DNA from: Nesterenkonia muleiensis
Lineage (GTDB): Bacteria > Actinomycetota > Actinomycetes > Actinomycetales > Micrococcaceae
Assembly (NCBI RefSeq): GCF_003600155.1
Contig: NZ_QWLD01000038.1
Coordinates: forward strand, 1-64,000
Length of the DNA: 64,000 bases
Direction: 5' to 3'
The position numbers were made by a program, and so were the translations under genes. The notes beneath the pieces are model-generated. The model did not search any database, was not told the origin of the DNA, and was given only the letters and a program-made list of their open reading frames with translations. Shown here in pieces: positions 296 through 10,305 of the stretch; positions within the stretch are counted from its first letter, which is position 1, and the number at the start of each line of letters is the position of its first letter.

Positions 296-1558
296 TCAGA
301 CCACTCCGCGGGCCTTGTAGTAGGCAGCCGCACGTGGGTCGGCCAGCAGCGGCCCATGCACCTGGAGCACATTCATGCCGGAGTTGATGTTGGCCTCCAG
401 GATCACCGGTCCGGACTCGGTGATCACAATGTCCCAGCCGATGTACTCCATGAACGCCAGACGGCGGGCGGCCTCCAACACCAGCTCTTTGGCCTCTTCC
501 CAGAACGGCACCTGGTGCCCCTGGATTCTGGCGCCGGAGTCGGGATGCTCGGCGAACCACTGAAGCTCGTCACCCTCAGGCAGCTGGGCGGCGGCGGACA
601 ATATTCCAGTCTCCAGCTCCACATTGGCCGACAGCCCGCCTTTGGTCCAGTTGTCGATATGCCCGGACCGTTCCGAGCCGATGCGCTGCGAGGCTCGGAT
701 GATGAAGGGGGAATGGTCGCCAGTGACATCCGGCATGGTCAGCAGCCGGATGGTATTGGTGGAGTGCGGGTTCAGCCCCGCCTGCTCGGGGTGCTGAACA
801 ATGGCGGCCTCGAACAGCACAGGGCGCGGGAAATCCCGCACCCAGTCGGCCATCTCTTCAATGCCGCTGGGCCTGCCGTCCATGCGGTAGCCATCCTCGG
901 TGACCTTCATGGAGCGCACACCATTGGCCTCTGCACCGTGCAGCGGTTTGACGAAGATGTGCCCGCGCTCCTCCAACGCCTCAGCCAGGAAATCCTCCAG
1001 CGGGATGCGGCGGCTCTGCGGGAAGGGGTGGACGTGGCCCCGGGTGTGCAGGCCCAGCAGGTCCACCACATCCGAGTCAAGCCCCAGGCTCTTGACCAGC
1101 AGGAAGAAGGAGAACTTATTGTTCAGCACCTCCTGCAGATGCGGACTGACCATACGTTTGGTGCGGAAATAGCGCTGGACGTCATTGATGTAGAGCGAGG
1201 GGTCGTTCCCCTCCTCCAACCCGTAGAGCGTGACTGATCGTGAGAGGAAGCCCTTGCGCCACCAGTCGGGTTTGCGGTTGGACCACTCGGTCTCCCAGCG
1301 AAACTCCTTGCGCAGGAAACGGCGGCCCGCACCGAACTGGCGCCGGCGGTAGCGGTAGGTCTTCGCCGCACGCGAGGGCACGCCTGCGGGATCTTTCAGG
1401 TTCTCCAGCGTGCGGGCTGCGGCACGCCTGGCGAAGCCGGGGGTGACGAAGCCCGCACTGTGCTTCCGGCTGGGTGAATCGCTGAGGTCGGGATCGTCGG
1501 GTTGCTCGGCGTCCTGGTACTCATCGGCGTCGTCGTGATTGCTGGGCGTTTCAGACAT
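296..1558 (-). CDS. Sugar-transfer-associated ATP-grasp enzyme (ATPgrasp_ST family)
   Basis: 420 residues. Residues 1-60 are acidic and probably disordered; the ATP-grasp fold occupies roughly 130-410. Visible nucleotide and metal residues are Lys204 (FVKPLHG), Arg271 (NTIRLL), Asp376 (GWDIVI), Glu388 and Asn390 (ILEANINSG), so the site looks intact. The family (PF14397-like) is predicted to act in cell-surface polysaccharide or glycoconjugate synthesis; its substrate is not known. The ATG lies 6 nt after TAGCAT (1565-1570), so the mRNA is probably leaderless. It is divergent from smc across 74 bp. It is the fourth ATP-grasp protein within 10 kb, the other three lying on the far side of smc. 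Confidence 0.8.
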   Translation of the reverse strand: MSETPSNHDDADEYQDAEQPDDPDLSDSPSRKHSAGFVTPGFARRAAARTLENLKDPAGVPSRAAKTYRYRRRQFGAGRRFLRKEFRWETEWSNRKPDWWRKGFLSRSVTLYGLEEGNDPSLYINDVQRYFRTKRMVSPHLQEVLNNKFSFFLLVKSLGLDSDVVDLLGLHTRGHVHPFPQSRRIPLEDFLAEALEERGHIFVKPLHGAEANGVRSMKVTEDGYRMDGRPSGIEEMADWVRDFPRPVLFEAAIVQHPEQAGLNPHSTNTIRLLTMPDVTGDHSPFIIRASQRIGSERSGHIDNWTKGGLSANVELETGILSAAAQLPEGDELQWFAEHPDSGARIQGHQVPFWEEAKELVLEAARRLAFMEYIGWDIVITESGPVILEANINSGMNVLQVHGPLLADPRAAAYYKARGVV

Positions 1559-1632: not shown

Positions 1633-4600
1633 GTGCATCTGAAGACGCTGACCGTCCGCGGCTTCAAATCCTTTGCCGCGGCCACCACTTTCGAGTTCGA
1701 GCCCGGTGTCACCGCAGTGGTCGGCCCCAACGGATCGGGGAAGTCCAATGTGGTCGACGCCCTAGCCTGGGTGATGGGGGAGCAGGGGGCAAAATCCCTG
1801 CGTGGCGGGTCCATGGAGGATGTGATCTTCGCCGGAACCACCGAGCGGCAGCCGCTGGGCCGGGCCTCGGTGTCGCTGACCATCGACAATGCCGACGGCG
1901 CCCTGCCGATCGACTACACCGAGGTCACCATCTCCCGGACCATGTTCCGCTCCGGGGGCTCGGAGTACACCATCAACGGCACCACATGTCGGCTGCTGGA
2001 CATCCAGGAGCTGCTCTCTGACTCCGGCCTGGGCCGGGAGATGCATGTGATCGTGGGGCAGGGGCAGCTCGACCAAATCCTGCAGGCCACCCCTGAGCAG
2101 CGCCGAGGCTTCATCGAGGAAGCAGCAGGGGTGCTCAAGCACCGGCGCCGCCGGGAACGCTCGGTCCGCAAGCTGGAGTCCATGCAGACTAACCTGGAGC
2201 GGCTGGAGGACCTGATCGGTGAGATCTCCCGCCAGCTGGCGCCGCTGGGGCGCCAGGCGAAGGTGGCGCGGCAGGCTCAGCGGATCCAGCATGATGTCCG
2301 CGATGCCCTCTCCCGCCTGATCGCTGATGACCTCCTCAGCGCCGCCACCGCTCTGCACGCATCCTCCCAGGGGGAACAGGCCGACCACCACGCCGCCGCT
2401 GAGCTCAAGGACCGGCTGTCCCAGCAGGATGCCCGGATCGCGGAGCTGACGGCCCAGGCTGAGGCCCAGCGCGCCCGGGCAGACCAGCTGGCCGACGGGC
2501 ATCACCGTCTCTCCCACGTCCAGGAGCGGCTGCGCTCGGTGGCCTCCTTGGCGGAAGAGCGGGCGCGCAGCCTCCGCAGCGGCCCTGCCGCGGAGTTCTC
2601 CGCCGAAGGCGATCCGCAGCAGCTTCGCGCCCGGGCAGAACAGGTCAGCGCGGAGGCCGAGACCCAACAAGAGGCGGTGAAGACCGCGCAGGAGACTCTG
2701 CAGACGGTCAGTCAGGCCCGGGCTGAGGCAGAAGAGGCGCTGAAGGCCGAAGAGACCCGCATCACCGAACAGCTGCGCGCTGTGGCCGACCGGAAAGCCG
2801 GTGTGGCGACGCTCAACGGCAGGGTGGAGACCGCCCAGGGCCGCGCGGACGCAGCGCAGGCACGGCGGCGCCGCGCCGAGGGTCAGCGCGAAGCCGAGCA
2901 GATCACCCTGGAGGCATCGCAGGCTGAACTGACCGATCTGGAACAGCGCATCGGCAGCATGGAGACAGGGGACTCCGGGCTGGAGGAGGCCCACCGTTCA
3001 GCCCAGCAGGAGTATGAACAGCTCAAAGCTGCACATGACAGTCTCAGCGCAGAACAGCGGCGGCTGGAGATCACCGTCAGCGAATCCCGCGCACGAATCT
3101 CCGGGCTCGAAGCAGCGTTGGCGGCAGCCCAGGAGAATGTCAAGCTCAATGAGCCAGGTGCGGCCTTTCCGCTGGAACTCGTCCAGGCCGGCGGCGATGT
3201 GGCGAGTCACCTGGAGTCCGCACTTGAGGGCGTCGTCGTCGTCGATGACAAGACCTTCGGTCAGCGGCTGGTGGCACGGGGAGATGCCACAGCCGCCCTG
3301 GCTCTGGGGCAAGCAGTGATCCGTGCGGGCGAATGGGTAGAGACCGCGGGAGAGAACACCGTTCAGAAGCTGCAGAGCCAGATCCAGGAGCTCACCGAGA
3401 AGTCTGCCGAGGCAGACCGGCAGCTCGGGGGAATCATCGAGGACATTGAGCAGAGCCGGGCCGCCGTCTCATCCGCCGAGCTGATGGTCAATGACGCATC
3501 AGAGGCGCTGCAGGCCAGCACCTCGGCGATCAGAAGCGCAGAAGAGCAGCTGGGGCGGCTCAAGAAGGAGATCACTCGTTCTCAGGAGCGGATCACCGGT
3601 TTCGTCCGGGAGATGGAGGATGCTGAGACGGCTGCCCGGGATGCCGCCGAGCAGCTTTCCGAAGTGACCGCCAGGCTGGAGGCCGCTGAGAACGACGACC
3701 TGGTGGAGGAGCCCTCCACCGAGGAGCGTGACCGGCTTGCCGAAGCAGCCTCTGCCACACGGCGCGATGAAGTCGATGCTCGGCTGGCCTTACGGGCCGC
3801 TGAGGAGCAGCACAAGCAGCTCCTGGACCGGGCAGCCTCACTTCGACGCTCGGCGCAGACCGAGGAACACCGCCGTGAACAGGCGCAGCGCGCCGCCGCT
3901 GCACGCAGCCGGCGGGCAGATGCGGCCGAGGAGATCGGGTATCAAGCACAGACCGCCGTGGAAGGCATTAAGGACCAACTCGTCACCATCGATGCTGCTC
4001 AAGCAGCTGCTCGGGAGCAGCACGCGGTCTGGAGGTCCCAGGTCGCCGAGCTGACCGAGCGCCGGGCCGGCGAGTCCGACCAGCTCGAGGAGATCACCGC
4101 GCGTCTGCATCAAGCGGAACTGAGGAGAACTGAGCTCAGACTGGCGTTGGAGGCCGCGGAGTCACGGGCTGAAGAAGAACTCAGCCTGACCCCGGAATAC
4201 CTGATCGAGCACTATGGCCCGGACCAGCCGATCCCGGACCCTGAGGCCGATGAGGAGGACCAGCAGTCTGAGCGGCCCTACGTGAGGGCTGAGCAGGAAC
4301 AGCGCCTGGCGCGTGCCAGAAGAGACCTGAGAGCACTGGGCAAAGTGAATCCGCTGGCTCTGGAGGAACACGCTGCCCTGGAAGAGCGGCACGCCTATTT
4401 GCAGGGGCAGCTGACCGACCTGAAGACTTCGCGGCAGGATCTGCTGGACATCATCGCCGAGGTGGACGCCACCGTGCATCAGGTGTTCTCTGAGGCCTGG
4501 GAGGACACCAGGGTTCAGTTCGAACGGGTCTTCTCCCGGCTCTTCCCCGGCGGCGAGGGGCGGCTGGAGCTCACCAACCCCGAAGACATGCTCAACACCG

Positions 4601-4932
4601 GCATCGAAGTCCACGCCAGGCCCCCGGGCAAGCGGATCCGCAGGCTCTCGCTGCTCTCCGGGGGCGAGCGCTCGCTGACCGCGGTGGCCCTGCTGGTGGC
4701 GATCTTCAAGGCCAGGCCGAGTCCGTTCTACGTGATGGATGAGGTGGAGGCTGCGCTGGACGACACTAATCTGTCCCGGCTGTTGGTGATCTTCGAGGAA
4801 CTCCGGGAGAGCTCTCAGCTGATCGTCATCACCCACCAGAAGCGCACCATGGAGATCGCCGATGCTCTCTACGGTGTGTCCATGCGGCAGGATGGCTCGA
4901 CACGGGTGGTGTCCCAGCGGTTAAGGGACTGA
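1633..4932 (+). CDS. smc: Chromosome segregation ATPase SMC, with a shortened hinge
   Basis: 1099 residues from GTG. The N-terminal head has Walker A GPNGSGKS (31-38). The C-terminal head has the signature LSGGERS (about 1007) and Walker B with catalytic Glu in VMDEVEAALDD (about 1034). Two long Glu/Gln/Ala-rich coiled-coil arms lie between. SMC dimers entrap and compact DNA together with ScpA/ScpB, which are not in this window. Odd: actinobacterial SMCs are usually near 1190 residues. Here the hinge is only about 70 residues (506-573) and resembles the second half of the usual hinge (LEGVVVVDDKTFGQRLV onward); the first glycine-rich half is missing. The 3' end overlaps the convergent ATP-grasp gene by 12 bp. 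Confidence 0.95.
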   Translation: MHLKTLTVRGFKSFAAATTFEFEPGVTAVVGPNGSGKSNVVDALAWVMGEQGAKSLRGGSMEDVIFAGTTERQPLGRASVSLTIDNADGALPIDYTEVTISRTMFRSGGSEYTINGTTCRLLDIQELLSDSGLGREMHVIVGQGQLDQILQATPEQRRGFIEEAAGVLKHRRRRERSVRKLESMQTNLERLEDLIGEISRQLAPLGRQAKVARQAQRIQHDVRDALSRLIADDLLSAATALHASSQGEQADHHAAAELKDRLSQQDARIAELTAQAEAQRARADQLADGHHRLSHVQERLRSVASLAEERARSLRSGPAAEFSAEGDPQQLRARAEQVSAEAETQQEAVKTAQETLQTVSQARAEAEEALKAEETRITEQLRAVADRKAGVATLNGRVETAQGRADAAQARRRRAEGQREAEQITLEASQAELTDLEQRIGSMETGDSGLEEAHRSAQQEYEQLKAAHDSLSAEQRRLEITVSESRARISGLEAALAAAQENVKLNEPGAAFPLELVQAGGDVASHLESALEGVVVVDDKTFGQRLVARGDATAALALGQAVIRAGEWVETAGENTVQKLQSQIQELTEKSAEADRQLGGIIEDIEQSRAAVSSAELMVNDASEALQASTSAIRSAEEQLGRLKKEITRSQERITGFVREMEDAETAARDAAEQLSEVTARLEAAENDDLVEEPSTEERDRLAEAASATRRDEVDARLALRAAEEQHKQLLDRAASLRRSAQTEEHRREQAQRAAAARSRRADAAEEIGYQAQTAVEGIKDQLVTIDAAQAAAREQHAVWRSQVAELTERRAGESDQLEEITARLHQAELRRTELRLALEAAESRAEEELSLTPEYLIEHYGPDQPIPDPEADEEDQQSERPYVRAEQEQRLARARRDLRALGKVNPLALEEHAALEERHAYLQGQLTDLKTSRQDLLDIIAEVDATVHQVFSEAWEDTRVQFERVFSRLFPGGEGRLELTNPEDMLNTGIEVHARPPGKRIRRLSLLSGGERSLTAVALLVAIFKARPSPFYVMDEVEAALDDTNLSRLLVIFEELRESSQLIVITHQKRTMEIADALYGVSMRQDGSTRVVSQRLRD

Positions 4933-6750
4933 GAGTCCGGCGATCTCGGCGAGCATTCCTTCGACAGAGCCTGCCATAAGGGTGGGAAAGTCCCGCAGGT
5001 CAGGTTTGACTGAGACACCTTCGACGATGATCGACTGCTTAGCGGAGTCTCGTACCAGGAGATCTACGAACGCCCATGGGAGCGAGGGGATGCCATGCAC
5101 AGCATCGATAGCCGTTGAACTGATCCGGTGAGACAGTGTGGCGGAAACAGGCGTGCTACCTTCTTCGCCCAGGAGGGCAAGAGACTGTGTCCGGGATGCG
5201 CAGACTCTGAAACGACGGCCGGTCTGCGCACGCTGAGCGGTGAGGTTTTTGCCTTCTTCTCCCGGATATTCGATGCTGTCCGGGTCGAAGGGCCTCCGGG
5301 CGTACCACCCCGCCTGACGAGAGATGAGGAACAGATCGGTCTCTGCCCGTGCGTGGTAGGCCTTAATCTCCTCTAAGCTTTGAACTTTGACAGAGCGCGG
5401 AACAGTGAGGCCGGCATCGCGCAGAATCTGCTGTGCAATGTGGTGTCGGCGCAGGAGTGAACTCGCACTTGCATAGAAACGCTCATCCATCATCCCGTTG
5501 AACCATTTATCTGGCTCACCCTCCTTGTTGGCCACAATGAGACGGGTGGCCTTGTACTCGGTGGTCCAGCCCTGCGCCTGCAGATGCCGAACAAGAGCGT
5601 GGGTCCGAATGGTCAAAGCAGAAGCTTCATTGTCGGGTCCTCCCGGGAGGACCTTCTGCACCATGTTGGTCGGTGAGGCAACAGGGTGGAGCTCTGCCTG
5701 CTTCGCATCGTCAGCAGAGGCACGCTCAAGGAGCCGCTTCCATGCGGGACCACCCACATCCTTGGGCGTGCCGTAGACGGGATACGTGGAGTTGCTGATG
5801 GCCGCGTTGGTGTTCAGCTCGAGGAGGTACGGTTTCCCGGTTGCCTTCTCAACCAGAATGTCGGCCCCACCCCAGTCCATGGTGGGGATCGCCCGGATAG
5901 CGTCCCGCGCCACGGTCAGAACTGCCGGGTCAAGCAAGTCCAGGCACTCGCTGGCCTCTCCGCCGCTACTGATACCGCCGACGTTGCGAACTGTCATGCG
6001 TTTCCCTTCGGGCAGCACTGATCCGAGGGTAAGCCCCTGCCTGCCCAAGTGCTTCTCCGTGGCCTGATCGACAGGGATCATCAGCATGCAGTTGTTGGGG
6101 TTCCTTCTCCTGAGCTCATTCTTAGCCTCGATGAGTTCCAGGACTGTCGACTGTCCGTCGCCTGCTACATGGGGCAGGAGTCGTCGGATTGCTCCGAAGC
6201 ACTTGTCCGGGGTCGCGACGAGTCGAAACTCGATGCCTTCGATATACTCTTCGACAAGCACGCCACGGCCATCCCTATTAGCATGATGGAAGGCTTGGGT
6301 GATCTCCTCGGCCGTATGGGCGTTGACGGTGACGCCTTTGCCCTGCCCGCCGTATCGGGGCTTGACCACCACGGAGGCTCCGAACTGTTTCTGGAGGCGC
6401 ACCGCGTCTTCGGCAGACGCGACGAGCAGGCCTCGCGGGGTGGGCACGCCGGCGTCTTGGAGCAGCTGTTTCGTCAGGTACTTGTCCTTGACGATCAGTC
6501 CGCCGGTGACGGTGTCCGTGCACATGTGGCCACGGATGAGCACCTGCTGACCGTCCTTCTCAGCGATGGCGCTGTAGGTGCCGTACCAGCGGACAGTGGC
6601 GCCGTCTCGCTCAGCAGCGCGGGAGGTGACCAGAGTGCCGATATTCCGTCCCTGTTCGATCTGTTGGGCAACGACTGACTGTGAATCGTCGTCGTCGTAG
6701 AGATTCGGCTCATCGGTGACGATATCCGGAAAATGATCTGAGAAGCTCAT
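4921..6750 (-). CDS. Tandem ATP-grasp protein, cyanophycin-synthetase/GshF-like (active + degenerate modules)
   Basis: 609 residues from ATG 6750, preceded by GGCGGA at 5 nt; an in-frame GTG at 6780 lacks a ribosome site. The first ATP-grasp module (about 85-345) has Lys130 (VVVKPRYGGQGKG), Glu167/Glu168 (LVEEYI), Arg176, the GDGQST loop, Asp297 and Glu311/Asn313 (LLELNTN). It resembles the amino-acid ligase modules of cyanophycin synthetase and bifunctional glutathione synthase. Residues about 420-600 look like a second, decayed copy: the Lys position is lost (DLFLISRQAGW) and the final metal Asn is replaced (VEGVSVKPD). Last gene of a three-gene run, 18 bp after the previous stop if translation began at GTG 6780. 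Likely forms an amide bond on an unknown substrate; a polymer or peptide product is inference only. Confidence 0.72.
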   Translation of the reverse strand: MSFSDHFPDIVTDEPNLYDDDDSQSVVAQQIEQGRNIGTLVTSRAAERDGATVRWYGTYSAIAEKDGQQVLIRGHMCTDTVTGGLIVKDKYLTKQLLQDAGVPTPRGLLVASAEDAVRLQKQFGASVVVKPRYGGQGKGVTVNAHTAEEITQAFHHANRDGRGVLVEEYIEGIEFRLVATPDKCFGAIRRLLPHVAGDGQSTVLELIEAKNELRRRNPNNCMLMIPVDQATEKHLGRQGLTLGSVLPEGKRMTVRNVGGISSGGEASECLDLLDPAVLTVARDAIRAIPTMDWGGADILVEKATGKPYLLELNTNAAISNSTYPVYGTPKDVGGPAWKRLLERASADDAKQAELHPVASPTNMVQKVLPGGPDNEASALTIRTHALVRHLQAQGWTTEYKATRLIVANKEGEPDKWFNGMMDERFYASASSLLRRHHIAQQILRDAGLTVPRSVKVQSLEEIKAYHARAETDLFLISRQAGWYARRPFDPDSIEYPGEEGKNLTAQRAQTGRRFRVCASRTQSLALLGEEGSTPVSATLSHRISSTAIDAVHGIPSLPWAFVDLLVRDSAKQSIIVEGVSVKPDLRDFPTLMAGSVEGMLAEIAGLSVP

Positions 6751-6798
6751 AATAATCCGCCATTTGTTATTGTCGGGCACACAGGATGTGTGGGCTGC

Positions 6799-8712
6799 TC
6801 AAAATAGCTGAGAAACCTGGCGCTTGACTCTGCGCAGGAGGCCACGGAGGGTCGGCGTCTTCATCACCTGGAACTGCTCCATCAGAGGGTCTTCGACCGG
6901 CGTCATCACCACCGAGGTGATGACCGCCTTAGTGGTCCCCGTCGTGGCCAAGTAGCCGAGCGCGGAGACAGCGTCAGCCGGACCTGAGACTACTGCTTCG
7001 ACGCGCTTCCGGCTCGCGTTCTTCACATATCCGGTGAGGCCGAAGCGCCGGGCTCGCTTGCCGAACCATTTACGGTAGCCGACGCCGGTCACACGCCCCC
7101 GGATGTCGAATCGGAGTGTGAGTCTCTTACTCTGATGCTCCGGAAGCGTGATCTCCGAGGCAGCCGCAGTGGCCTCGAAGAATTTCTTGGCGACAGGCGC
7201 GGGGGTTCCCCACATGGGATACTGAGCGCTGCCGATGGCGGCGTGGGCGTTGAGTTCGATCACCGTGCATCTCTGTTCCCATACCGGCTTGCGGTGATCC
7301 TCGATCAGCATATCCAGGCCGCAGAAACCCAGCCCGGGCACGGCCTGAACAGCCTTGACTGCTAGCTCCTTGATGGAGGGGTGCATCTCATCGGCGATCT
7401 CAAAACTGTCGCCACCCTGCGAGAGATTCGCGGAGTTGGCCAGCAGAACGGTCTGGCCCGCCTCGGGTATGGAGGAGAACGTCAAGCCTGCTAGCTTGAG
7501 TTGATACTGCAGTGATTCGCTGAGTGTGATCGGGCGGGAGCTGAGATGTGGGTTCTCCTGGCGGGCACGGTTCTTGTACTCGATGAGGTCGGCCACTGTG
7601 TGCATTCCGTCGCCCGTGACAGAGGCTGCGGATCTGACCACAGAGGCGACGACCTCATCCCCGATGACGACGATGCGGTAGTCCTCGCCGGGAACATGTT
7701 CCTCGATGACGAAGTCATCATCGCCCAGCTGGCTCTGCTGGTAGAGAGTGAGCGCGTCTTCCAGCTCCTCCCGGTTCTGAATGTTCGCCACCACGCCAAT
7801 ACCGCGCAGGCCTGCGACCGGTTTGCAGACCACGGGGTAGCCGATGCGGTCCGCGTACTGCACGGCGAGGTCACGGTCTGCTGTGGAGAAGACACGGCCG
7901 TGGGGCACCGGCACATCAATGCGCTTGAGCAGGCGGCGCGTCGCCTCTTTGTAGCTGCAGATTGACAGCGCCACACCGCTGGCAAGGGGTGAACGGCCCC
8001 ATTTGAAACCAAGCTGCTTCTGACTGTTGAGATCAGTGACGACGAACGCGCCGTTGGGATAACGAGTGCTGGCCATGCCGTAACGCAGGGCCTCACGCTC
8101 CAGCAGGTGCCCCTTTGTGCCGTCCTTAGGCAGCGGTTCGATAAAAGGGGCGTCCTCGAAGACGTTGGCAGGTTCCCCTTGAAAGTGAGGGGCCGTTGGT
8201 TCGGGGGCGACGAAGTAACGGTTCACCTGCGGAAGCTTCGTCTCAAGCATCCTGCCCAGATCGTCCCTGGACGGTGCGTCATGGGCGCTGAACATCACGA
8301 ATGCTTCTTTGACGGCATCCCTGATGCGTTCGAAGGCTTCTCTGCCGGGGCTCTCCTGCAGCTCCGCGATCTCAGATGCTTCGGAGAGGGTCATCGCATC
8401 GATGAAAGCTTGTGCCTGACCGGCGTCGCCCAAGGGAACATCCTTGAACAGTAGGCCTTTAAGGAGCTTTTCACCGACTTCCCAGGCGGCAGCGGGCATA
8501 AGAAGATCCTCGCCACCGTCGATGAGTTCAGCCTGGCCGACGGTCGAGATCTCCTGGTCGGCGCGATGTCCCACGACTTGCGCATAGATCCTGCTAGGCC
8601 GTGCCATCTCTTCATCGCGTCGGAGTCGGATGAGGCGTACGAGGAAGATCGGGCCTGTCTGACCGGTGTCCTCGGTACGGAGGACGTTTCCGCGGGGTGT
8701 GACTTCAGGCAA
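6799..8712 (-). CDS. ATP-grasp ligase fused to a C-terminal acylphosphatase domain
   Basis: 637 residues from TTG 8712, with GAAGGG 8 nt upstream; ATG 8607 is an alternative start. Residues 1-240 match no family I recognise. The ATP-grasp module (about 250-512) has Lys297 (VVCKPVAGLRGIG), Glu337/Glu338, Arg346, TGDG (366-369), Asp467 and Glu486/Asn488 (VIELNAH), so it looks catalytic. Residues 531-605 form an acylphosphatase domain with both catalytic residues, Arg547 in GRVTGVGYRKW and Asn565 in GYVKNAS. ATP-grasp ligases work through acyl-phosphates and acylphosphatases hydrolyse them, so the fusion may edit or release an intermediate (inference). The start overlaps the preceding stop by 8 bp, indicating translational coupling. 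Confidence 0.78.
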   Translation of the reverse strand: MPEVTPRGNVLRTEDTGQTGPIFLVRLIRLRRDEEMARPSRIYAQVVGHRADQEISTVGQAELIDGGEDLLMPAAAWEVGEKLLKGLLFKDVPLGDAGQAQAFIDAMTLSEASEIAELQESPGREAFERIRDAVKEAFVMFSAHDAPSRDDLGRMLETKLPQVNRYFVAPEPTAPHFQGEPANVFEDAPFIEPLPKDGTKGHLLEREALRYGMASTRYPNGAFVVTDLNSQKQLGFKWGRSPLASGVALSICSYKEATRRLLKRIDVPVPHGRVFSTADRDLAVQYADRIGYPVVCKPVAGLRGIGVVANIQNREELEDALTLYQQSQLGDDDFVIEEHVPGEDYRIVVIGDEVVASVVRSAASVTGDGMHTVADLIEYKNRARQENPHLSSRPITLSESLQYQLKLAGLTFSSIPEAGQTVLLANSANLSQGGDSFEIADEMHPSIKELAVKAVQAVPGLGFCGLDMLIEDHRKPVWEQRCTVIELNAHAAIGSAQYPMWGTPAPVAKKFFEATAAASEITLPEHQSKRLTLRFDIRGRVTGVGYRKWFGKRARRFGLTGYVKNASRKRVEAVVSGPADAVSALGYLATTGTTKAVITSVVMTPVEDPLMEQFQVMKTPTLRGLLRRVKRQVSQLF

Positions 8713-9904
8713 CTGAGGATCCCTTCGAGTAGTTCACGGCAGCTGCTCTGTCATCAACGAGGCAGCCAGCCATCAGAAGTTCCACGAGCGCGGCAAGGAC
8801 TTCGGGGGTGCCGCTTGCCGTTCCCACAACGTCGCCTGAGACGGCGTCTGAGTGCTCGACACTGATGCGCGCCCCGTAGGACTCGGCGATGCTCGGGAGC
8901 TCCTTAGCTACTTGGTCTGCATGACGTAGGCCCTCTACCTCAATCCGGCGAAAGATCGTGCTCACAGCCGCTGGGAGATCAACCTGAGCCTCACCAGCCT
9001 GGAAATTCAGAAGCGCGTCACCGATGACATCGCCCAGCCCGGCGTCGGCAGAAGCGTAGGTTTCGATCCGAGGGCGTTCCGAGATGCCGGTGATCAGCAA
9101 AGGGAAGGATCCCTGCTGCGGGGACTCGGGGTTTTGTACAGCATCAACGGTGGCACAGGCGAGTCCAGGCACTGCAGCCGCCGTTTGGGTGAACAAAGCC
9201 ACATCCTCAGCGCTCAGCTCGTGCTTCACGCTGCGAACACCGGTGGAGTCGTCGGTATCCAACTCCACCGCAGCGACTAATTCATCGCCGATAACAAAGG
9301 CACGGACGGTTCGCCCAGGCATCTGCTTCTCCACCAGCATTCGGGAGCGTAAGGGAGCTACCTCGTTGCCTTCTTCGTCAAAGGTGAAGGTGAGGCGAGT
9401 GGTGGCGTAGCCGGCGGTGTGCGGATTGCTGCCCGGTGTCCTGTCCGCCTTATCGCGTCGGCGCAGTTCGTTGAACGCTGCGCGAAGCTGCTCACCAGAG
9501 GTGATATTGCCGATTGCGCGTACGGGGTTCTCGCCGACTCCTTCTCGCAGAATCACAGGGTAGCCAATCTTCTCCGCCCACTTCTCTGCCTCGGAGATGC
9601 TCTTCCAGGAGAAGGACGCCCCTGTGGGGGTGGGAAGCTTAGCCCTGTCCAGGAGCGCTCGCTTCAGCCTGTGGTCCTGGGCGAAGGTCACCGCTGACAG
9701 TCCTGATGCCTCGGGCACACCATGGGTGTAGGAGAGTTCGGAGGGCACAGCGCTGACAGTTCCGGCCAGAAGCACCTGGCGGGGCAGTGCGAGCGTATTC
9801 AGATCGCGTGCGAGAGCTGCGCGGTGGACCTGATAACCGTCGAGGAGCCGTGTTGGCAATGGGACCCCGCCCACCTCGGTGTGAGGCTCGTTCTCGCTGT
9901 TCAT
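8705..9904 (-). CDS. Degenerate ATP-grasp/acylphosphatase-like protein (probable pseudoenzyme)
   Basis: 399 residues; AAAGGGG lies 10 nt before the ATG. Residues about 70-300 follow the ATP-grasp order of the next gene, but key residues are changed: the ATP lysine is Arg120 (VILREGVGE), the glycine loop is broken, and the terminal Glu-x-Asn is replaced by LITGISERP. Glu192 (LVEKQM) and Arg201 are kept. Residues about 316-382 match the acylphosphatase fold in spacing (IEVEGLRHADQ ... SGDVVGTASGTPEVL), but the catalytic Arg and Asn positions are not conserved. Inferred: a non-catalytic paralogue of the fused enzyme downstream, perhaps a partner or substrate-binding subunit. First large gene of the cassette. 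Confidence 0.6.
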   Translation of the reverse strand: MNSENEPHTEVGGVPLPTRLLDGYQVHRAALARDLNTLALPRQVLLAGTVSAVPSELSYTHGVPEASGLSAVTFAQDHRLKRALLDRAKLPTPTGASFSWKSISEAEKWAEKIGYPVILREGVGENPVRAIGNITSGEQLRAAFNELRRRDKADRTPGSNPHTAGYATTRLTFTFDEEGNEVAPLRSRMLVEKQMPGRTVRAFVIGDELVAAVELDTDDSTGVRSVKHELSAEDVALFTQTAAAVPGLACATVDAVQNPESPQQGSFPLLITGISERPRIETYASADAGLGDVIGDALLNFQAGEAQVDLPAAVSTIFRRIEVEGLRHADQVAKELPSIAESYGARISVEHSDAVSGDVVGTASGTPEVLAALVELLMAGCLVDDRAAAVNYSKGSSVA

Positions 9905-9999
9905 CGCCGGTTGGCCCCTTTCGGTTCCTGTGCCCGACTCAATCCCTCACATGTTGTTGCTTTGGCCGTGGGGTCGAAGTCCGTGGGTGGCATATTCAT
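9901..9999 (-). CDS. Candidate small ORF (32 residues) heading the ATP-grasp cassette
   Basis: ATG AAT ATG at 9999-9991 opens a 32-codon frame whose TGA (9901-9903) overlaps the ATG of the degenerate ATP-grasp gene as ATGA. The peptide starts MNMPPTDFDPTAKATTC and ends QEPKGANRR; it has one Cys and no membrane segment. A TATACT hexamer lies 9 nt upstream, so the transcript could begin at or within a few bases of this ATG. It could be a leader that couples translation, a peptide substrate for the ligases, or chance. No homologue is known to me. Confidence 0.35.
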   Translation of the reverse strand: MNMPPTDFDPTAKATTCEGLSRAQEPKGANRR

Positions 10000-10008
10000 T
10001 GCCCCGAC

Positions 10009-10014
10009 AGTATA
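10009..10014 (-). promoter_or_regulatory. Candidate -10 element (TATACT) of the ATP-grasp cassette
   Basis: TATACT on the minus strand differs from TATAAT at one position and lies 9 nt before the small ORF and 104 nt before the first large cassette gene. I see no good -35 at 16-18 bp. The rest of 10015-10243 holds no gene I can support. Confidence 0.35.
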
Positions 10015-10243
10015 GGCGTAATTCTCTACTGCCCCCGCCACGACGTTTCTGGCACCGTGAAACTACCGCCGGAGATTCGTGGCCGACCTTCCGGCTGACA
10101 ATCACGGCTCTGCGGGGGCCTCCGGCGCTGACTGGCGTAATCATGATGATCGCGATATGTCCTAGGCGGGTCTTCCGGAGTGTTATGTCTGCGAGGAGCG
10201 TCTCTGGAAGGAAGCCCGTCCCACAGTAGACACGCACAAGGAA

Positions 10244-10281
10244 AGGGCCGGGACACAGCTGTGTGGCTGTGTCCCGGCCCT
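10244..10281 (-). terminator. Strong hairpin terminator after amt
   Basis: A perfect 15-bp stem (10244-10258 with 10267-10281, arms AGGGCCGGGACACAG and its complement) has an 8-nt loop. On the minus strand it is followed by CTTTCCTT. It lies 25 nt past the amt stop and separates amt from the ATP-grasp cassette in the same direction. Confidence 0.8.
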
Positions 10282-10305
10282 CGTGTCACTGAGAGGTTTG
10301 AAGTA

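Follow-up and report, generated by a model that had tools for sequence, protein, structure and literature searches.

The 64,000-nt stretch of Nesterenkonia muleiensis DNA analysed here (the window) carries three adjacent minus-strand genes between smc and amt, and it raises the question of what these genes make together. A first-pass annotation had taken them for a three-gene cassette of ATP-grasp and acylphosphatase domains with an amide-linked product. Read along the minus strand, genes C (8705-9904, 399 aa), B (6799-8712, 637 aa) and A (4921-6780, 619 aa, with an alternative ATG start at 6750) form intact frames, all three free of internal stops. C and B overlap by 8 nt, and B starts with a TTG codon 7 nt after AAGGGA. 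B and A are separated by 18 nt, or by 48 nt if A begins at the ATG; the presumed coupling by overlaps holds for C/B, but not for B/A. The core gene smc (1633..4932, plus strand) abuts the cassette, is convergent with A and overlaps it by 12 nt with its 3' end; it is regarded as context outside the system.

The cassette is poorer in GC (60.8%) than smc (66.5%) and the rest of the window (65.2%), and lies below every one of 119 same-length sliding windows within the 64 kb. The dip noticed in the first-pass annotation is real, while its figures of 60% versus 70% are not. A strong hairpin at 10245..10280 (minus strand) had been thought to bound the cassette. It is situated upstream of C and 3' of amt, is likely the terminator of the latter (10225-10305, -44.9 kcal/mol, z -7.6), and was rejected as the cassette end. 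The 3' end of A shows no outstanding hairpin (folding z -0.35), and a sigma-70 scan and a simple terminator scan returned matches at chance level only. In some relatives, the site between smc and amt is empty.

Domain search and residue alignments bore out the domain calls made initially for all three genes: a dead-looking C, an ATP-grasp plus acylphosphatase in B, and a live and a decayed half in A. In B, an ATP-grasp (residues 231-513; 7174..8022, minus strand) is fused to an acylphosphatase domain (residues 530-615; 6868..7125, minus strand). Residues K297, E337, D467, E486 and N488 of the former, comprising the ATP lysine and the acidic and Asn metal ligands expected of an active enzyme, are invariant in 47 sequences; the domain is live-looking and predicted to be functional. 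The latter matches PF00708 over residues 535-614 with 54 bits (cut-off 22.5) and retains G539 in 47/47, R547 in 43/47 and N565 in 39/47 sequences, where R547 and N565 are presumably the catalytic Arg and Asn of acylphosphatases. The N-terminal region of B (residues 19-162; 8227..8658, minus strand) matches the capping domain of the enolase superfamily (probability 92, E 5.3e-7) and is likely the remnant of such a cap, the barrel of which is gone.

Gene A shows the same expected ligands in its first half (residues 95-353; 5722..6498, minus strand), where K140, D307, E321 and N323 are invariant in 14 aligned sequences. Judged by its residues, this half is live-looking and predicted to be functional, and the alignment suggests that the second ATP-grasp half (about residues 380-619; 4924..5643, minus strand) is dead.

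Newly recognised here, gene C is a paralogue of B in degenerate form, and this holds for B as a whole, both ATP-grasp and acylphosphatase fold. Its ATP-grasp region (residues 64-300; 9005..9715, minus strand) reaches 19.4 bits, slightly under the cut-off of 19.8, and aligns to B in a profile comparison with probability 99.9 and E 8.8e-31. The C-terminal domain (residues 316-394; 8723..8959, minus strand) adopts a beta-alpha-beta-beta-alpha-beta arrangement in the structure model (pLDDT 89.9), a degenerate acylphosphatase fold, and matches the acylphosphatase of B with probability 94 and E 1.2e-7. An unrelated ATP-grasp is rejected by both the profile comparison and the model. The glycine loop GLRGIG of B reads GENPVR in C, the metal-ligand Asn is replaced by Ser, and R547 and N565 are aligned with Ala and His. 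C lacks both the glycine-rich loop and the metal-binding Asn of an active ATP-grasp and is predicted to be an inactive pseudo-ATP-grasp plus pseudo-acylphosphatase. Of the 81 C sequences, 76 have lost G304 and 80 have lost G306, and all 81 carry S, A or G in place of N488, whereas the position of the ATP lysine holds K in 65 and R in 15, E337 is kept in 81 and D467 in 78. Since most C proteins keep these three positions, C may still bind nucleotide. It exemplifies a conserved partner protein built from degenerate copies of two catalytic domains. The initial assignment of A and B to one family stands, but was too narrow, as C belongs to it too.

Linkage was assessed in 42 tabulated loci, one per genome, comprising the window, 35 of 76 named loci (L038-L073 minus L068, which shares a contig with L066) and six other related genomes. 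Forty further loci (L074-L113) were excluded; their identity is 28-37% and in nearly every case extends over the ATP-grasp only. No B was found by threshold in L050 (broken frames) and L064 (contig end), which leaves 40 B-bearing loci. In 36 of these, C adjoins B on the same strand, and therefore the two genes pass the linkage test, the unlinking elsewhere that would have spoken against a system being absent for B-C. The four loci without a separate C neighbour are L069, L071, L072 and L051, the last of which encodes a C-B fusion (residues 7-381 correspond to C, 482-1050 to B). A-type proteins that span a live and a dead half occur in only 9 of the 42 genomes, so that the set varies and the three-gene cassette is the version present here. 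The B-C part of the supposed three-gene unit thus persists, but the three genes alone do not constitute the unit.

A set of three genes only was also rejected on co-occurrence. Among 58 related genomes, B, C, an asparagine-synthetase-like gene (c3) and a 170-aa protein (c9) are found in the identical 13; G026 was left out of the count for C, because it matched (E 9.5e-12) only through a B-like ATP-grasp that is part of a frame of 860 aa. These 13 genomes plus G026 contain the class of the gene ST (296..1558, minus strand, 420 aa), which lies on the far side of smc from the cassette and matches PF14397, the "sugar-transfer associated ATP-grasp" family, with 123.2 bits (cut-off 31.4). This count of 14 covers strong matches only (E 6e-34 or better); PF14397 exceeds its cut-off in 20 of the 58 genomes, and the weaker matches in G012, G018, G019, G021, G022 and G032 were set aside. 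A further gene, c2, occurs in the 13 genomes plus G026 and G027, again counted as a strong class (E 2e-108 or better, 15 genomes) with weaker relatives in 15 more. Its label as glycosyltransferase-like is weak: of four members scanned, two had no Pfam match and two were sub-threshold. At least five gains or losses are required by an amt tree that covers 29 genomes, and an independent-pairs test of B versus ST, with five pairs only, gave a median p of 0.0625. In the own genome, c9, c3, c2 and another ATP-grasp are contiguous on a different contig from the window (C29:9306-13887), and more genes follow as far as a pair of ABC transporter genes at 26.5 kb.

The surroundings of B in other bacteria point to the cell surface. 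Near B in the 40 loci we counted ST in 32, enolase-superfamily genes in 30, CapA in 20, glycosyltransferase classes in 17, the Asn class in 14, racemases in 12, ABC classes in 8 and UDP-sugar dehydrogenase in 7; these are raw counts within about 10 kb on each side of loci chosen by the B query, without a random-gene control. Genes were called by a simple codon-position picker, and clusters were named after one or few Pfam-scanned members. The ABC genes at L055 look like an importer. In relatives, CapA is fused to A-type and B-type ligases, Halomonas encodes an ATP-grasp-CapA-Mur ligase fusion, and in Gracilibacillus a separate CapA gene and an ABC-2 permease gene lie close to distant relatives. 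Enolase-superfamily domains are neighbours and in some cases fused to the same ligases, and polysaccharide genes for capsule and cell wall as well as Asp/Glu racemases are found close by. Part of this context is generic: ABC and glycosyltransferase classes are also present near smc in genomes without B, and TupA occurs in 27 of the 58 genomes independently of B, so that the glycan context as such is not cassette-specific.

The same neighbourhoods bear on a secreted small peptide, antibiotic- or siderophore-like and built by successive ATP-grasp ligations, as the product. Linked ATP-grasp ligases often yield peptide secondary metabolites, according to a passage of PMC4431377, the distribution is patchy, and an MFS gene (c6) adjoins the cassette in some relatives. 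However, the MFS class of c6 also flanks amt in genomes without B, and the recurrent neighbours are polysaccharide genes. We regard this explanation as distinctly improbable.

The own genome is poorer in such clues. A genome-wide search gave no match for CapA (PF09587), and a search without positive control gave none for an enolase-superfamily domain; thus, two indications of surface location and D-residues are absent here. Together with the reduction of the epimerase part of B to its cap, the low GC of the cassette, the stops that interrupt B in genome G017 and the near relative G029, where the slot still holds a racemase but neither B nor C, this would fit A, B and C as leftovers of a larger CapA/epimerase system whose ancestral product is no longer made here. 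Intact frames of all three genes, the catalytic residues kept in A and B, best homologues with 71-81% identity and the continued presence of ST, c3, c9 and c2 argue against decay, which we consider very unlikely.

Instead, we favour an amide-ligase module, formed by A, B, C and ST with the co-occurring asparagine-synthetase-like and glycosyltransferase-like genes, that adds amino acids or a peptide (or a polyamide) to a cell-surface glycopolymer, with a probability of roughly 0.6. This reading draws on gene content, catalytic residues kept or lost, adjacency, fusions, co-occurrence and capsule-type neighbourhoods. Because the relatives are located among capsule and cell-wall genes, attachment of amino acids to a surface polymer is the probable role of the set. 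The amide-forming ligase system proposed at first sight gains support. From these data we infer a B-C complex, an editing role, a surface location and all that is said of substrates and product. B and A would each use ATP to turn a carboxylate into an acyl phosphate, which would then be joined to an amine. C would be the partner of B, serving as a scaffold or holding the acceptor, and the dead half of A may act likewise for A. By hydrolysing acyl phosphates, the acylphosphatase of B could clear wrong or stalled intermediates or end the chain, an editing or termination role that is directly testable given its fusion to a presumed acyl-phosphate-making enzyme. The attached peptide would be short and in some species possibly contain D-residues, which enolase-superfamily epimerases (separate or fused) and Asp/Glu racemases would supply there; CapA, glycosyltransferases and ABC exporters of other species would bring the product outside the cell.

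More tentatively, the set could represent an undescribed class of amide polymerases of halophiles and alkaliphiles, in which a live B is obligately paired with its dead copy C and, with CapA- and epimerase-linked ATP-grasps, builds an acidic polyamide (with D-residues in some species) on a surface uronan, with editing or chain termination by the acylphosphatase. We hold this wider view to be possible, if doubtful. A review (PMC3815933) names as an open question which enzymes alkaliphiles that lack pgs or cap operons use to make acidic walls bearing peptides, and the set provides co-inherited candidates for such walls in Nesterenkonia, Phytoactinopolyspora, Haloechinothrix, Ruania and Halomonas.

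An open-access literature search found no described system of this composition, in line with the first-pass annotation, and no paper with the phrase of the PF14397 family name. The ligase and epimerase used for penicillin in a passage of PMC13338154 are unrelated to the cassette. Single components have known counterparts. The gene at 296-1558 is a member of ATPgrasp_ST, a family named after its genomic context, and the acylphosphatase domain of B, with Arg and Asn kept, differs from the free enzyme by its fusion to a ligase expected to make acyl phosphates.

Among characterised enzymes, cyanophycin synthetases CphA1/CphA2, GshF and NAGGN synthetase are the closest relatives, the first making an intracellular storage polymer and the others soluble peptides. 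The kinship to cyanophycin synthetase and GshF modules suspected initially is supported by the NCBIfam models to which A and B come closest, albeit far below the cut-offs. PRK14016 is the nearest ATP-grasp profile (B 217, A 201 bits) and 7ta5 and 7wae are the best folds, but both proteins miss the TIGR02068 equivalog cut-off of 850 bits (185 for A, 204 for B), none of the three proteins matches the Mur_ligase domain, and the cassette differs by the acylphosphatase in B, a degenerate partner gene and polysaccharide neighbours in relatives. GshF and NAGGN synthetase provide the next-best ATP-grasp profiles, with scores of A and B far under the cut-offs; the matches cover just the ATP-grasp portion of the models, and A, B and C contain neither the glutamate-cysteine ligase domain of GshF nor the GNAT acetyltransferase domain of NAGGN synthetase (TIGR03103). 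B was therefore rejected as any of the three enzymes, its scores being too low and domains missing. An intracellular product of A and B that serves under salt or pH stress, either an osmolyte in the form of a soluble peptide or a storage polymer, similar to N-acetylglutaminylglutamine amide or cyanophycin, with the surface linkage incidental, would suit these top profiles and folds. It would also suit the observation that, of the 35 named loci tabulated, 18 belong to organisms whose names refer to salt, alkali or soda (judged from the names). The missing GNAT and Mur domains, the CapA and Mur-ligase fusions, and the linkage to ST and polysaccharide genes in several families speak against it, and we deem it unlikely.

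The addition of amino acids to a surface polymer, our preferred reading, has its counterparts elsewhere. CapA is common to PgsBCA/CapBCA and to relatives, in which it is fused to ligases of the A and B types, but the ligase of the cassette is an ATP-grasp instead of a Mur-type enzyme and the own genome has no CapA. PgsB/CapB (TIGR04012) exceeds its cut-off in 1 of 58 genomes and in 0 of 30 in the genus, and classical PgsB was rejected as maker of the product. Under the more tentative view of an undescribed polymerase class, the set would constitute a poly-glutamate-like wall route independent of CapB/PgsB and cyanophycin synthetase. It would then be the kind of ATP-grasp system proposed for B. 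halodurans: according to PMC3815933, this species makes poly-gamma-L-glutamate although it has neither pgs nor cap operons, and an unidentified ATP-grasp synthetase is suggested. Teichuronopeptide, an acidic peptide-uronan wall polymer of alkaliphilic Bacillus according to a passage of PMC8153356, is assigned a polyglutamate synthetase that PMC3815933, in the part cited, calls unidentified and possibly an ATP-grasp. The polymer itself consists of polyglutamate and polyglucuronate. A, B and C themselves have no TupA-family match, and TupA is distributed independently of B. TupA-family genes are nevertheless found beside C in N. haasae (a member of cluster c25) and, outside the cassette of the window, in the own genome (PF14305, C29:19544-19897, 45.3 bits, cut-off 25; a partial match to model positions 127-239). 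Teichuronopeptide would be the closest known kind of product to the one proposed here, and our best reading is a product of this type that would be made by other enzymes.

The cassette between smc and amt consists of three intact minus-strand open reading frames, gene C (8705-9904, 399 aa), gene B (6799-8712, 637 aa, TTG start) and gene A (4921-6780, 619 aa, GTG start). In A, a downstream ATG at 6750 is consistent with the 609 aa of the database copy P0173. The frames of C and B share 8 nt, AAGGGA precedes the TTG of B at a spacing of 7 nt, B and A are separated by 18 nt, and the 3' ends of A and smc overlap by 12 nt. With a GC content of 60.8%, versus 65.2% for the remaining window, the cassette lies below all 119 equal-length sliding windows within the 64 kb. 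A strong hairpin (10245-10280) is positioned 3' of amt. A and B match ATP-grasp models in Pfam, B additionally matches the acylphosphatase model PF00708 (54 bits), and C yields a sub-threshold ATP-grasp match only. The NCBIfam models nearest to A and B are cyanophycin synthetase, followed by NAGGN synthetase and GshF, all far under cut-off.

Alignments separate live-looking from degenerate active sites. K297, E337, D467, E486 and N488 are invariant in B (n = 47), as are K140, D307, E321 and N323 in A (n = 14); no comparable loop or metal motif was found in the second half of A in the same alignment. The Arg and Asn of the B acylphosphatase (R547 and N565), which we take to be its catalytic residues, are retained in 43/47 and 39/47 sequences, respectively. 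When 81 C sequences are aligned with 15 B sequences and numbered as in B, G304 is retained in 5/81 and G306 in 1/81, while N488 is replaced by S, A or G in all 81. E337 (81/81), R346 (80/81) and D467 (78/81) are preserved, the ATP lysine K297 is retained in 65 sequences and is Arg in 15, and E486 is retained in 47. The window's C carries Arg at the K297 position and Gly at the E486 position. From these residues, we read C as a protein likely to have retained the ATP-grasp fold without catalysis, with residual nucleotide binding possible. In total, the three genes hold two live-looking and two degenerate ATP-grasps and one intact acylphosphatase.

C is a degenerate copy of B. In profile comparisons, its front matches the B ATP-grasp (probability 99.9, E 8.8e-31) and its end the B acylphosphatase (probability 94, E 1.2e-7), and its AlphaFold2 model (pLDDT 89.9) has a C-terminal beta-alpha-beta-beta-alpha-beta domain. 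At the positions of R547 and N565 of B, the profile alignment shows Ala and His in the window's C, and for two Halomonas C proteins a direct match to the acylphosphatase profile persists (E about 2e-4). By fold, CphA is nearest to both C and B (Foldseek). The N-terminus of the window's B resembles the capping part of an enolase-superfamily protein that would have lost its barrel (profile probability 92, E 5.3e-7; B model pLDDT 88). In an alignment of enolase-type domains from relatives (n = 51), 14 retain all five presumed catalytic positions, or 11 once the duplicate loci L130, L068 and L122 are removed. They belong to CapA-linked proteins, to second copies of B and to similar proteins; among the same 51, the five positions are intact neither in B preceding C nor in the free-standing Halomonas and Sulfitobacter domains.

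Scanning genome contigs with B as query yielded 76 loci, and neighbours were counted on fetched DNA of the 40 genomes with B among 42 tabulated. C adjoins B on the same strand in 36/40 B loci. The remaining four are a C-B fusion (L051), a Trueperaceae MAG (L069) and two distant Gracilibacillus copies of B (L071, L072). The Gracilibacillus loci, a Bacillota version without C, carry glycosyltransferases, a CapA and several ATP-grasps, of which some match acylphosphatase weakly; in L072 an ABC-2 permease and an ATPase are present as well. Linked near B are ATPgrasp_ST (32/40), enolase-superfamily (30/40), CapA (20/40), glycosyltransferase classes (17/40), Asn-synthetase-like genes (14/40), Asp/Glu racemase (12/40), ABC classes (8/40, the one in L055 resembling an importer) and UDP-sugar dehydrogenase (7/40). 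Class names were taken from Pfam-scanned members, which exceed cut-off for Asn synthase, racemase, UDP-sugar dehydrogenase, CapA and ABC; in the glycosyltransferase-like class c2, two of four scanned members match sub-threshold and two are unmatched. The order Asn - GT - ST - racemase - B - C recurs in the actinobacteria Haloechinothrix, Ruania and Phytoactinopolyspora. A-type proteins that span both halves were seen in 9/42 tabulated genomes. A region of about 60 kb in another searched genome (L114-L116, G003:C1:415000-474999) contains numerous ATP-grasp genes and two pairs of B with C, together with genes that our cluster labels mark as UDP-sugar dehydrogenases and glycosyltransferases.

Functions linked in the neighbourhoods are also joined by gene fusion: B-CapA (P0044), CapA-ATP-grasp-dead half (P0183), enolase-CapA-ATP-grasp (L056) and, in Halomonas stenophila, ATP-grasp-CapA-Mur ligase in one protein (L058, 12604-16260). 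The latter contains the parts of cyanophycin synthetase with the capsule protein CapA inserted. By our reading of record titles, 18/35 named loci bear salt-, alkali- or soda-type names, 'CSSed' presumably denoting soda-lake sediment; those without include Leucobacter, Glutamicibacter and two MAGs taken as bird gut.

Among 58 searched genomes, 30 of them Nesterenkonia in GTDB's sense, B (E 2e-117 or better), C (3e-32 or better), c3 (Asn-synthetase-like) and c9 occur in an identical set of 13 (G000, G001, G003, G004, G005, G006, G007, G009, G010, G015, G017, G024, G028). The strong ST class comprises these and G026, an 82%-complete assembly with a distant B-like frame only, and the strong c2 class additionally G027. 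On the amt tree (29/30 genus genomes) the B label requires 7 changes, at least 5 of which supported branches make unavoidable; across 5 independent pairs, ST accompanied B 4.7 times on average and never opposed it (median p 0.0625). On this small test, the set seems to be gained or lost together. c9 (L144, G000:C29, 9306-9815) encodes 169 aa, follows the presence pattern of B and C across the 58 genomes and has no Pfam match. In Nesterenkonia pannonica (G017; L050, L126), several stops and frame changes break B, C and their neighbours, either by decay or by sequencing error (assembly 62% complete).

The B-less genomes G002, G020, G023, G013 and G014 show smc, then an MFS gene and amt, with two small ORFs between these genes in G023. 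The near relative G029, with an amt 96% identical to the window's, has the order smc, 162-aa gene, racemase, amt, and its racemase shares 75.5% identity with the cassette racemase of N. haasae. This Asp/Glu racemase and the 162-aa gene (L183, G029:C2:30000-49999, 6536-7255) occupy the smc-amt interval where B and C are absent, and are possibly a cassette remnant. Presence and absence at a common slot, together with the low GC content, suggest acquisition or differential loss of the cassette. Elsewhere in the own genome, c9, c3, c2 and an ATP-grasp cluster at C29:9306-13887; beyond them lie more genes and an ABC transporter pair, which extends to 26.5 kb. As the window begins at base 1 of C36, just past ST, C29 may join C36 at the window start. 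An ABC transporter operon, which we read as ATPase, two permeases, substrate-binding protein and GntR-like regulator, lies between smc and ST in G004 (L127) and beside c9 in G000 (L144).

B-C pairing is near-constant, and genes for polysaccharides, D-amino acids and CapA are repeatedly linked. We propose that the ATP-grasps would couple amino acids via acyl phosphates, that C may shape B or hold the acceptor, that the acylphosphatase of B might end or edit the reaction, and that the product would leave the cell on a glycan. In the open-access literature searched, which excludes most subscription papers, we found no ligase described that combines an ATP-grasp with an acylphosphatase and is paired with a degenerate partner; the available parts of PMC2824669 and PMC11915815 name no such system. 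Among the 120 listed of 311 B homologues, database names are generic ('acylphosphatase', 'ATP-grasp domain-containing protein', 'enolase C-terminal domain-like protein', 'D-alanine-D-alanine ligase-like ATP-grasp enzyme/acylphosphatase'), and one carries poly-gamma-glutamate capsule. TupA-family genes occur in 27/58 genomes independently of B; the own genome has a single partial match, and in N. haasae a TupA-family gene lies beside C. PgsB over cut-off was found in none of the 30 genus genomes, and CapA is absent from the own genome.

Linked ATP-grasps working in series are an established idea (PMC4431377). We read the cassette as a probable variant of the ATP-grasp peptide-ligase module of surface polymers. 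Among known products, teichuronopeptide comes nearest; it is described in PMC8153356 as polyglucuronic acid with poly-gamma-L-glutamate in the B. halodurans wall and credited there with a role in pH homeostasis. According to a review (PMC3815933), isomerisation activity is absent from both ligase types, so that D-residues would need a racemase or epimerase. The same review states that pgs and cap are both absent from the B. halodurans genome and proposes an unidentified synthetase bearing an ATP-grasp domain.
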